Positions 6,665-33,639 of a stretch of DNA of 45,752 bases are shown here, piece after piece; positions within the stretch are counted from its first letter, which is position 1; each line of letters opens with the position of its first letter. The position numbers were made by a program, and so were the translations under genes. Location of the stretch: contig JAQGIF010000012.1 in NCBI GenBank assembly GCA_028291345.1, forward strand, positions 1 to 45,752. The letters run 5' to 3'. Below the pieces are notes generated by a model. That model made no database searches. It saw only the letters and a list, made by a program, of their open reading frames with translations, and was not told where the DNA came from. Origin of the DNA: Rhodospirillales bacterium. GTDB taxonomy: Bacteria > Pseudomonadota > Alphaproteobacteria > BOG-932 > Roseiterribacteraceae.

Positions 6665-7615
6665 ATGCCTTCCGACCGCCTGGGCGCCCAGCGCTATGCG
6701 GCTGCCGCTTTGATAGCCGGATTGGTCAGCGGTGCGCTGGCGCTGTCGGTTGAGACGGCCTCGTTGTGGAGGCTGGTGTTCTTGGGGCTGGCGCCGCTGC
6801 CGCTCTTCGCGAGCGGATTGTCGGCCGGCCCCTTGAGCAGTCTGGCCGCCGGTCTGGCGGGAGCCGTACTGGTGACGGCGGTGGTGGGATCGGTCGGGGG
6901 CGGCGTTTATCTCGCCGCCATCGTGATCCCCAGCGCGATTTTGGTCTGGCAGGCGTTGCGCTCAGTCCAGGCCGGTGAGGCACGTAAGGTCTGGTATAGT
7001 GGCGGCAACCTGTTGCTGTGGCTTGCCGGGTTGGGGATTGCCGGCGTTCTGGCGCTGATCGGCTACTTTGCCGTCTCGCACGGTGGATTGGCTTCGGCGA
7101 TCGGTGAACGGTTCGAGTTGACGCCGTTTGTCTCGGCAATGCTGGCGCGGATCGCGCCGGGGCTGGCGGTGGCGGCGTGGATGGTGGTGATTGCCGCCGA
7201 CAGTGTGGTCGCCGAGTGGCTGGTCGCGCAGTTCGGGCTGGCGGTTCGGCCTCCGATCGATATCAGACGGCTCAGCCTGCCGGTATGGATCGGTCCGATT
7301 TTGATGGTGGCGGGTCTGGCGGGTGCGATCCTTCGTGAAGGCACGATTGGGATGGTCTGTCTCAACTCAGCGATCGTGTTGGTGGTGCCGTTCGTATTCC
7401 TGGGTCTGGCGCTCGTTCATGCGCTGGTCGGGCGAGTCTCGTACGGGCCGGCATTGATAGCCGCCATGTATGTCGTGTTGCTGGGTTCGCCGGCTTTGTT
7501 AGGCTGGCGCGCCCTTCTGATTTTTACGTTGATGCTGGCCGGTTTGGGATCGGCCGATCAATTGATCGATTTCCGCGATCTTCGCGGGTTGCGGACTGGA
7601 ATGAGAAGGAAGTGA
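6665..7615 (+). CDS. DUF2232 polytopic membrane protein
   Basis: A 316-residue, very hydrophobic protein with about eight predicted membrane segments (for example near 9-27, 33-50, 56-72, 76-95, 118-138 and several after 210). It sits between rpsR and rplI, the place where a DUF2232 protein is found in many alphaproteobacteria. The molecular function is unknown to me; a transporter-like or envelope role is only a guess. The start ATG at 6665 lies 22 bases after rpsR, and rplI follows seven bases after its stop, so it is clearly in the operon. Codon use is slightly richer in TTG and GTG than its ribosomal neighbours. Confidence 0.8.
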   Translation: MPSDRLGAQRYAAAALIAGLVSGALALSVETASLWRLVFLGLAPLPLFASGLSAGPLSSLAAGLAGAVLVTAVVGSVGGGVYLAAIVIPSAILVWQALRSVQAGEARKVWYSGGNLLLWLAGLGIAGVLALIGYFAVSHGGLASAIGERFELTPFVSAMLARIAPGLAVAAWMVVIAADSVVAEWLVAQFGLAVRPPIDIRRLSLPVWIGPILMVAGLAGAILREGTIGMVCLNSAIVLVVPFVFLGLALVHALVGRVSYGPALIAAMYVVLLGSPALLGWRALLIFTLMLAGLGSADQLIDFRDLRGLRTGMRRK

Positions 7616-7622
7616 GGGCGTT

Positions 7623-8177
7623 ATGGAAGTGATCCTCTTGGAGCGCGTACCCAATCTCGGCCAATTGGGCCAGATTGTGAAAGTAAAACCGGGCTATGCC
7701 CGCAATTTCTTATTGCCAACGAAGAAGGCGCTGCGGGCCACGAAGGAAAACCTGGCCTATTTCGAACGGCAGAAGTCCGTGATTGAGCAGACCAACGCCG
7801 ATCGCCGCCAGGGCGCCACGGTGCAGGGCACCAAGGTCGATGGCGCCTCGGTCGTCATCGTTCGTCAGGCCGCTGAATCCGGCCAGCTCTATGGCTCGGT
7901 CACGGCCCGCGACATCGCCGACGCCATTTCGGCTCAAGGCACGCTGGTCGATCGCAACCATATCGTCCTGAACCAGGCGATCAAGACGCTCGGCCTATTC
8001 AGCATCACTGTCGCGCTTCATCCCGAAGTTTCGGTTAAGGTGACCGTCAATATCGCCCGCTCCGAAGAAGAGGCGAAGACCCAGGCCGCGCGCGGCGAAG
8101 CCCTGATCGGCCGGGCCGATGACGAGGATGAAGGCGAAGCGCCGGCGGCAGCGCCCGAGGCGACCGAAGAAAGCTGA
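7623..8177 (+). CDS. rplI: 50S ribosomal protein bL9
   Basis: Elongated two-domain protein at the base of the L1 stalk. The N-terminal signature MEVILLERVPNLGQLGQIV and KPGYARNFLLPTKKA (about 23-37) are unmistakable, followed by the long connecting helix and the C-terminal domain (LYGSVTARDIADAI). The 184 residues exceed the roughly 150 of E. coli L9 because of an acidic Ala/Glu tail (DDEDEGEAPAAAPEATEES), a common alphaproteobacterial extension. It ends the ribosomal operon; a DnaA-box cluster and dnaB follow. Confidence 0.97.
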   Translation: MEVILLERVPNLGQLGQIVKVKPGYARNFLLPTKKALRATKENLAYFERQKSVIEQTNADRRQGATVQGTKVDGASVVIVRQAAESGQLYGSVTARDIADAISAQGTLVDRNHIVLNQAIKTLGLFSITVALHPEVSVKVTVNIARSEEEAKTQAARGEALIGRADDEDEGEAPAAAPEATEES

Positions 8178-8198
8178 TATTGCTGAATGACGGGCAAG

Positions 8199-8253
8199 TT
8201 ATCCCCGGCATTACCGGCGTGTGGATAGATTCTATCCACCAAATTTATCCACG
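8199..8253. promoter_or_regulatory. cluster of four DnaA-box-like sites upstream of dnaB
   Basis: In the 127-base rplI-dnaB gap four 9-mers resemble the DnaA box TTATCCACA: TTATCCCCG (8199-8207), CTATCCACA on the minus strand (8228-8220), CTATCCACC (8232-8240) and TTATCCACG (8245-8253). Three differ from consensus at one or two positions, and the middle two form an inverted pair three bases apart. The block lies 52 bases before the dnaB start. It would let DnaA regulate dnaB transcription. The boxes are seen; binding is inferred. Confidence 0.6.
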
Positions 8254-8304
8254 CGCCGCTGAAGTCGGATATCGCGTCGTGCCTGATTTTGGTATGGTGC
8301 CCGG

Positions 8305-9783
8305 ATGCTCGAGCGCGACACTGTTTTCACCCTTGCTTCCATCGGAACGCCCGCGCGTGGCCGAGCGGAGGCCCGACAGATGCCGCACAATGCGGATGCC
8401 GAGCAGGGCCTCCTCGGCGCGCTGCTGATCGATAATCGCGCTTACGAACGCGTCTCCGACTTTCTCAAGGCAGAGCATTTTTATGCACCGGTACATGGTC
8501 GCATCTATAGCGTCATCGCCAAGCTGATCGAACGTGGCCAAATTGCGACCGCAGTCACACTGAAAGCGTTATTTCAGGAGGACGAAGACCTGACCCATCT
8601 GGGCGGTGCGGCCTATCTTGCGGACCTCGCGGCAAGCGTCGTGACGATCCTCAGCGTCGAGGATTACGGCCGCACCATCTTCGAACTGCATCTCCGCCGC
8701 GAACTGATCGCGATGGGCGAGGAGATGGTTAACGAAGCGCACAAGCACGATATCGACCAGCCGCCGACCGAACAGATCGAAGCCGTTGAGCGAAAGCTGT
8801 ATGAACTGGCGACCGTCGGCGACACCGGCAGCGGCTTCGTTCCGTTTTCGACCTCTCTGACCAATGCCATCGGCATGGCGGAGGCCGCCTACCGACGGTC
8901 CAGCCACATATCCGGGGTGACAACGGGGTTGCGCGATCTCAATCGCAAGCTTGGCGGTCTCCAGCCATCGGATCTGCTGATCCTCGCCGGACGCCCGTCG
9001 ATGGGCAAAACCGCGCTCGCAACCAATATCGCCTTCAACGCCGCCCAGGCTTACGCCAAAAGCAACGGTAAGGAAGGCGCGATGGTCGCGTTCTTCTCAC
9101 TGGAAATGTCGTCCGAACAGTTGGCCACTCGTATTCTGGCCGAAGTGTCGGAAGTGGCATCGGAAAAGATCCGCAAGGGCGAGGTCCGAGATGTCGAGTT
9201 CCGGCGTTTCGTCGAAGCCAGCCAGATGCTGGCGAGCATCCCGTTCTATATCGACGACACCCCCGCCCTTTCGATCGCGCAGGTACGCACCCGCGCGCGG
9301 CGCCTCAAGCGGCAGTTCGGCCTCGGTCTGATCGTCATCGATTATCTGCAGCTGCTACGCGGTACCGGTACCAGCGCCGCGCAGAGCCGGGTTCTGGAGA
9401 TTTCCGAGATCACGCGCGGCCTAAAGGCGCTTGCCAAGGAACTATCGGTCCCGGTGCTGGCCCTGTCGCAGCTAAGCCGTGCGGTCGAACAGCGGGATGA
9501 CAAACGCCCCCAACTGTCGGACCTGCGCGAATCGGGCACAATCGAACAGGACTCGGACGTTGTCATGTTCGTGTTCCGCGAGGAATATTACATCGAACGA
9601 CGGCAGCCCGCCGAAGGGACACCGGAGCATATGACCTGGCAGGCCGATATGGAAAAGGCGCATAATGTGGCCGAGGTGATCATCGGCAAGCAGCGCCACG
9701 GCCCAGTCGGAACCGTAAAACTGCATTTCGAGGGTCAGTTCACGCGCTTCAGCGACCTCGCCAATCCATATGAGGACCATTGA
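8305..9783 (+). CDS. dnaB: replicative DNA helicase DnaB
   Basis: Hexameric 5'-3' helicase that opens the replication fork and recruits primase. The 492-residue protein has an N-terminal domain (about 27-130, beginning PHNADAEQGLLGALL), a linker, and the RecA-like motor: Walker A GRPSMGKT at 229-236, LIVIDYLQLL at 342-351 (Walker B), and DLRESGTIEQDSDVV. No intein is present. I keep the ATG at 8305, because relatives carry a short extension before the PHN motif; a second ATG at 8380 has the better ribosome site (GGAGG) and would give 467 residues. The gene lies after a DnaA-box cluster. Confidence 0.95.
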   Translation: MLERDTVFTLASIGTPARGRAEARQMPHNADAEQGLLGALLIDNRAYERVSDFLKAEHFYAPVHGRIYSVIAKLIERGQIATAVTLKALFQEDEDLTHLGGAAYLADLAASVVTILSVEDYGRTIFELHLRRELIAMGEEMVNEAHKHDIDQPPTEQIEAVERKLYELATVGDTGSGFVPFSTSLTNAIGMAEAAYRRSSHISGVTTGLRDLNRKLGGLQPSDLLILAGRPSMGKTALATNIAFNAAQAYAKSNGKEGAMVAFFSLEMSSEQLATRILAEVSEVASEKIRKGEVRDVEFRRFVEASQMLASIPFYIDDTPALSIAQVRTRARRLKRQFGLGLIVIDYLQLLRGTGTSAAQSRVLEISEITRGLKALAKELSVPVLALSQLSRAVEQRDDKRPQLSDLRESGTIEQDSDVVMFVFREEYYIERRQPAEGTPEHMTWQADMEKAHNVAEVIIGKQRHGPVGTVKLHFEGQFTRFSDLANPYEDH

Positions 9784-33611: not shown

Positions 33612-33639
33612 TTATTCACGATTGCCATTTATTCACGAT
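33612..33639. repeat. paired direct repeats in the MFS/regulator gap
   Basis: TTATTCACGAT occurs at 33612-33622 and again at 33629-33639, 17 bases apart, with a related TTATTCATCG at 33469-33478 next to the MFS start. They may be operator sites of the lost regulator or the edge of a small rearrangement. The rest of the 210-base gap holds no gene that I can identify. Confidence 0.5.

Follow-up and report, generated by a model that had tools for sequence, protein, structure and literature searches.

Among the closest described counterparts of the locus considered here is that of Caulobacter crescentus, where predicted DnaA boxes lie upstream of both dnaQ and dnaB, two genes of the regulon that Hottes et al. 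2005 assigned to DnaA, as summarized in PMC8203912. In the account of PMC3193534, Caulobacter DnaA activates hdaA, gcrA, ftsZ and mipZ from promoters carrying one to six boxes, with up to six at hdaA, and the promoter descriptions of PMC4287350 place DnaA motifs at -52 and -83 of mipZ P2 and at -82 of podJ P2. Closely spaced box pairs are described as preferred DnaA targets of E. coli in PMC11317965, and dnaB is absent from the list of 16 DnaA-bound E. coli regions given there. From Mycobacterium tuberculosis, on the other hand, binding of DnaA upstream of dnaB has been reported, together with a mutant that binds less at this position and also underexpresses dnaB (as presented in PMC7738170). 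The origins of Caulobacter and Rickettsia are flanked by hemE and COG1806, the latter being assigned the domain DUF299 in the same source (PMC1914354).

The box cluster between rplI and dnaB

The stretch of DNA analysed here, 45,752 nucleotides in its full length and referred to as the window, carries the genes for ribosomal protein L9 and the replicative helicase DnaB on the same strand, separated by a gap of 127 bp (Table 1). A scan of the window located four 9-mers with at most two mismatches to TTATCCACA within 8199-8253 of this gap, two of which (8220 and 8232) form an inverted pair with three bases between the boxes; both features had been pointed out in the original prediction, whose distance of 52 bases from the cluster to dnaB becomes 51 when counted between 8253 and the ATG at 8305. 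No perfect DnaA box occurs among the four sites or anywhere else in the window, and the position termed box 2 is degenerate. Over the window as a whole, TTATCCACA-like 9-mers are not in excess (65 versus a shuffle mean of 58.6). Their clustering is rare in shuffled sequence, with at least four sites per 55 bp in one out of 400 dinucleotide shuffles of the window and in none out of 5000 shuffles of the 127-bp gap, such that the dnaB gene of the window has upstream of it several TTATNCACA-like 9-mers beyond chance, the feature by which DnaA-regulated promoters are recognized. The start-to-start spacings of boxes 1, 3 and 4 (21 and 12 bp) recur in locus L009, and the 21-bp spacing is common to L031, L120, L127 and L222. 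Elsewhere in the window, at 33612-33637, two direct TTATTCACG words have starts 17 bases apart.

Table 1. Features of the rplI-dnaB region (window coordinates)
Feature	Position	Strand	Basis and remarks
rplI, ribosomal protein L9	7623..8177	+	ORF; Pfam PF03948 + PF01281
DnaA box 1, TTATCCCCG	8199..8207	+	2 mismatches; identical to the class majority word for this position
Imperfect inverted repeat, 27-nt, 78%	8205..8268		Arms 8205-8231 and 8242-8268
Box 2 position, degenerate in the window (GCATTACCG)	8208..8216	+	Alignment to the array; class majority word TTATTCACA
DnaA box 3, inverted, CTATCCACA on the minus strand	8220..8228	-	1 mismatch; class majority word, plus strand, TGTGGATAA
GATTC, a GANTC (CcrM-type) site with putative role	8228..8232		Sequence; centre of the inverted pair; weak class enrichment
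DnaA box 4, CTATCCACC	8232..8240	+	2 mismatches
DnaA box 5, TTATCCACG	8245..8253	+	1 mismatch; outside the class consensus
Putative -10 element TATGGT	8293..8298	+	6 bases ahead of the dnaB ATG; would imply a leaderless mRNA
dnaB, replicative helicase	8305..9783	+	ORF; Pfam PF00772 + PF03796

Boxes 3 and 4 together form a perfect dyad of 19 bp (8221-8239) around the GANTC site. Within the class, GANTC is found at +20 to +45 of the array in 11 of 91 arrays, whereas seven other palindromic pentamers occur there in 0-5 of 91 and GANTC itself occurs in 4 of 91 in an upstream stretch of equal length; as to a link with CcrM, this enrichment is suggestive only.

Conservation upstream of dnaB in the Alphaproteobacteria

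A set of 213 loci with a DnaB match was assembled and oriented by tblastn. Arrays were counted in 198 of these and boxes in 196; the omitted loci, which include L003 and L020, were identical copies or had upstream sequences that were too short. The loci are the best DnaB matches in genome collections and not a random draw, and the dnaB start, taken as the in-frame ATG nearest the conserved part, is a guess in each case. Exact TTATCCACA occurs at -260 to -80 of a fixed DnaB codon with 34 sites in 30 of the 196 upstreams, whereas 100 permuted 9-mers gave a mean of 0.24 and a maximum of 2; at -550 to -250 and at 0 to +250 of the same codon, the exact word is missing from all 196. When up to one mismatch is allowed, 124 sites are found at -260 to -80 in 91 of the 196 upstreams, as compared to a mean of 5.6 upstreams (maximum 17) and 5.8 sites for permuted words.

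A motif search seeded with box-like words returned an array of ≈ 46 bp, consisting of TTATCCCCG, an abutting TTATTCACA, the trinucleotide GGC and an inverted TGTGGATAA, with TTATTCACA and TGTGGATAA as the majority forms of boxes 2 and 3, and followed by a T-rich stretch which holds another box in some genomes. With the model fitted to the very upstreams in which it was counted, the array exceeds 15 bits in forward orientation in 91 of 198 cases and in reverse orientation in four, and it does so in none of 594 shuffles. The two-fold held-out test, which started from the plain TTATCCACA seed and used a threshold of 12 bits, is weaker than this count: 83 of 198 upstreams passed in forward orientation and 5 in reverse, as did 10 of 990 shuffles. 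Not every upstream has the array, since 107 of the 198 do not rise above 15 bits; among the 26 families of the first set, 12 were positive and 14 had no upstream beyond this threshold.

Conservation in close relatives, on which the original prediction had been staked, is indeed seen before the same gene: two genomes of the same family (G003 and G004) score 33.4 and 30.1 bits at the gap, in line with the class-wide count. The assemblies of the two same-genus genomes (G001 and G002) are without the rplI-dnaB gap, so that conservation is seen outside the genus. The distance to the gene is also held within limits, as the start of 82 of the 91 arrays falls 70-149 bases ahead of the closest in-frame ATG; it amounts to 106 bases in the window and to 108 and 107 in the same-family relatives. 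The array itself is a real, conserved feature, and very probably a binding site of DnaA.

The host of the window had been taken for a sphingomonad, which it does not look like, since its order holds only five genomes of the collection, in one family and two genera. A far larger number would be expected for the Sphingomonadales.

With regard to the promoter, a TA...T word stands 6-9 bases before the nearest in-frame ATG in 69 of 198 dnaB genes, as against 9 of 485 when ATGs inside dnaB are taken and an average of 12.5 of 198 at other upstream offsets, while Shine-Dalgarno-like words give no comparable peak before the dnaB ATG in this set. Because of these two results, and of TATGGT six bases before the ATG of the window, dnaB is probably leaderless, with its mRNA starting at the ATG, and it appears to be so in many Alphaproteobacteria. 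A simple scan for sigma-70-like promoters passed none at the window locus and missed TATGGT as well. Relative to the predicted start at the ATG, the boxes lie at about -106 to -52.

Preference for dnaB and resemblance to origin-type regions

The array strongly prefers dnaB. Upstream of recA, neither an array above 15 bits nor an exact box was found in 30 loci; four of the 30 hold a box with one mismatch, and single weak boxes therefore mean little. Among dnaG upstreams, the array stayed at or below 15 bits in two samples of 30 and 19 loci (0 of 49 in total, with G007 and G135 outside the sample and a further locus, L368, too short), with an exact box in a single locus of the 30. A composite pattern searched with up to three mismatches in 387 genomes gave 16 matches in 15 genomes, 14 of them before dnaB, one before dnaG (L238) and one elsewhere (L252), and the reversed pattern gave none; the window itself does not match within three mismatches. 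Perfect boxes are not in excess genome-wide, neither in the genome of the window (G000), with 18 versus 21 for the reversed word, nor in G003, with 4 versus 13, and throughout the 3486-bp dnaA locus (L001), considered for the dnaA promoter, no box with one mismatch or fewer occurs.

In two genomes of family f4, the same array precedes the gene for the primase, dnaG, identified by Pfam (L291, G007:C94:4672-4704; L238, G135:C162:4576-4602), in both cases adjoining a small ORF that resembles YqeY, a name given by eye; in the first of these genomes, G007, dnaB too is preceded by boxes with a spacing of 21 bp (L308). The idea that dnaG is a general target besides dnaB was rejected, these two cases standing against the 49 other dnaG upstreams.

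From 50 dnaB upstreams we constructed R1, a model of sequence only, with the window and its two same-family relatives (L002, L004 and L005) left out. Searched against 59 whole genomes, it found in the draft genome of the window a single match, at 8197-8239 of the window (18 bits, E 0.018); the dnaB site was likewise the top match in G003 (E 1.3e-4) and the sole match in G004 (E 3.1e-4). Among the 38 of 59 genomes with any match at E<=5, the best one lies before dnaB in 14, nine of which had supplied training rows and five of which had not (G000, G003, G004, G026 and G050). In the remaining 24 it lies elsewhere, for example before dnaG in G007, beside hemE, ppsR and maf in G016, near ppsR in G014, between maf and rho in G041, and before mnmE in G012.

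Along the same lines, a search of 299 Pseudomonadota genomes at E<=0.02 returned 21 rows in 19 genomes, five of them before dnaB (two from training genomes, one being the window), nine beside hemE with ppsR and/or maf, and seven at neither dnaB nor hemE. Eight of the nine hemE-type matches come from one family, f13 (L299, L369, L370, L372, L374, L375, L377 and L381), and two of the 19 genomes (G456 and G506) lie outside the Alphaproteobacteria, neither with its match at dnaB. The ppsR-type gene in L294 has a Pfam match to Kinase-PPPase, and by the link between this name and DUF299 we equate COG1806 with the ppsR family. On the upstream side of hemE, G003 has TTGTCCCCG and CTATTCACA abutting, the boxes being 9 bp apart from start to start, the same abutting pair as boxes 1 and 2 of the array. 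Since a model trained on dnaB upstreams finds regions of origin type, these matches are good evidence that the shared binding factor is DnaA, and R1, which finds the hemE-ppsR/maf region in the eight f13 genomes, might even work as an origin finder. The organism has one copy of DnaA as found in its genome, intact, with 496 aa and a GGRDHTTV segment which we presume to be the DNA-binding signature of the protein.

Probable function of the array and its place among known systems

It is likely, as judged from sequence, that the segment 8199-8253 serves as an array of DnaA-binding sites in the dnaB promoter region, and that it changes, and most probably raises, transcription of the gene. DnaA would bind the boxes cooperatively, in the kind of arrangement that origin regions of Alphaproteobacteria also display, at a position immediately before the dnaB promoter; its availability around initiation, and perhaps its ATP/ADP state, would then change dnaB transcription, most likely upwards, and new helicase would thereby be made for the forks. 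A DnaA-controlled dnaB promoter had been among the possibilities raised by the original prediction, and, with the boxes conserved before dnaB, it now appears to be the best reading. Activation seems likelier than repression by analogy with Caulobacter, because DnaA motifs occupy similar positions there and four promoters with one to six boxes are activated by DnaA.

The opposite sign is the alternative that survives best, although it is unlikely: DnaA would bind the same array and repress dnaB, or act as a roadblock to read-through from rplI. This overlaps with the favoured explanation in all but the direction of the effect. It could draw on the lack of an intrinsic terminator of the rplI operon (a G+C-rich hairpin followed by a T run) in 8100-8400, and on E. 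coli DnaA, which according to PMC11317965 represses several genes and can stand as a roadblock in the way of RNA polymerase. On the other hand, the array lies upstream of the predicted -10 element and does not overlap it, and the same-family loci L004 and L005 keep the array in spite of a terminator-like hairpin before it, as read by eye. The review cited above, moreover, places Caulobacter dnaB in the DnaA regulon on the basis of a study of genes that rise between G1 and S (PMC8203912).

Titration of DnaA, which had also been suggested for this cluster, was not supported as its main function. A titration or reactivation site comparable to datA or DARS, placed before dnaB by chance, is improbable, even though closely spaced clusters of DnaA boxes also mark datA and DARS of E. 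coli (PMC11317965, Table 1). Such a site needs neither a fixed orientation nor a fixed distance, and what disfavours it is that the array points nearly always toward dnaB and keeps its place before the ATG, as counted above; titration alone was rejected for this reason.

Still less probable is an RNA element, that is, a hairpin in the 3' end of rplI or in a dnaB leader, with no protein site on the DNA. The gap does fold better than shuffled sequence (-53.7 kcal/mol, z -4.5, none of 200 shuffles as good), and the reason for this is the 27-nt imperfect inverted repeat made up of boxes 3 and 5 together with the flanking bases. The helix between boxes 2 and 3, in contrast, lacks covariation beyond shuffles, with 63.6% of paired cells compared with 65.2% in column shuffles, and it exceeds slid versions as any dyad would; box 1, the most conserved part, lies outside this helix. 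Rfam gave no match in 7600-8700 at E<=1, dnaB seems to be leaderless, and the array model finds regions of origin type. Strong as the fold in the window is, an RNA hairpin was rejected on the covariation result for the helix between boxes 2 and 3 and the lack of an Rfam match.

A second or former replication origin at dnaB is hardly credible, and an origin was not supported as the main function of the cluster, whose box density had originally been remarked upon as typical of origins or DnaA-controlled promoters: the box order resembles that of origins, R1 also finds origin-type regions and the gap has 50-52% G+C against 60-63% in the surrounding 4-kb windows, yet the gap measures just 127 bp without a strongly A+T-rich stretch, the window (from a draft of 401 contigs) has no clear GC-skew switch, the hemE origin-type region of G003 lies 1.27 Mb from dnaB on a contig of 4.23 Mb, and the flanking genes are rplI and dnaB instead of hemE and ppsR, which rejects an origin of the hemE-COG1806 type.

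Returning to DnaA control of dnaB, a wider proposal can be made, albeit tentatively and with slightly less than even confidence. In the Alphaproteobacteria, the one-way, origin-like array before a leaderless dnaB promoter might represent an ancient module of regulation whose box order is common to oriC and the helicase gene; in one family, f4, the array also stands before dnaG. If this were true, DnaA would read its own availability both at oriC and at dnaB, and helicase synthesis and initiation would respond to the same DnaA state. How the supply of replicative helicase is matched to initiation in bacteria is, to our knowledge, little understood. A conserved DnaA array before dnaB would make this coupling directly testable in many species, the box order common to dnaB and origins would offer a short natural substrate on which the reading of abutting and inverted boxes by DnaA could be studied, and the array in combination with a -10 word just before the ATG would provide a simple rule for predicting DnaA control in uncultured Alphaproteobacteria.

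DnaA control of dnaB had been reported before for Caulobacter, and what is apparently new is the breadth across the class together with the fixed, origin-like, one-way geometry. The titles and abstract openings returned by searches of an open-access library yielded no description of a conserved array before dnaB, which is weak evidence of novelty, the subscription literature being mostly outside this scope. In the M. tuberculosis system a DnaA site likewise lies upstream of dnaB, with binding observed there and predicted here; the organism belongs to another phylum, and the data described in PMC7738170 attribute the peak to Rv0057, a gene located upstream of dnaB. The double boxes of E. coli share the close spacing of pairs, but as described they stand on one strand with 2-3 bp between them, whereas here boxes 1 and 2 abut and boxes 3 and 4 are inverted. 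The hemE-COG1806 origin (Cori type) shares the abutting boxes, as in the pair found before hemE in G003; the dnaB array differs from it in being short, located beside a promoter, without hemE or ppsR, and distant from the hemE region of G003. The DnaA-activated promoters of Caulobacter (hdaA, ftsZ, gcrA, mipZ and podJ), as far as their published descriptions cited above go, resemble the present case in the distances of DnaA motifs from the start, which are given for mipZ P2 and podJ P2; what sets the array apart is that it precedes the gene for the helicase and that its box order is repeated from family to family. Also close is the Caulobacter DnaA regulon itself, as outlined in PMC8203912, in which dnaB has predicted DnaA boxes upstream and is expressed in a DnaA-dependent manner: there the boxes were predicted in one species, whereas here a multi-box array of fixed order and fixed orientation precedes dnaB in 91 of 198 upstreams.
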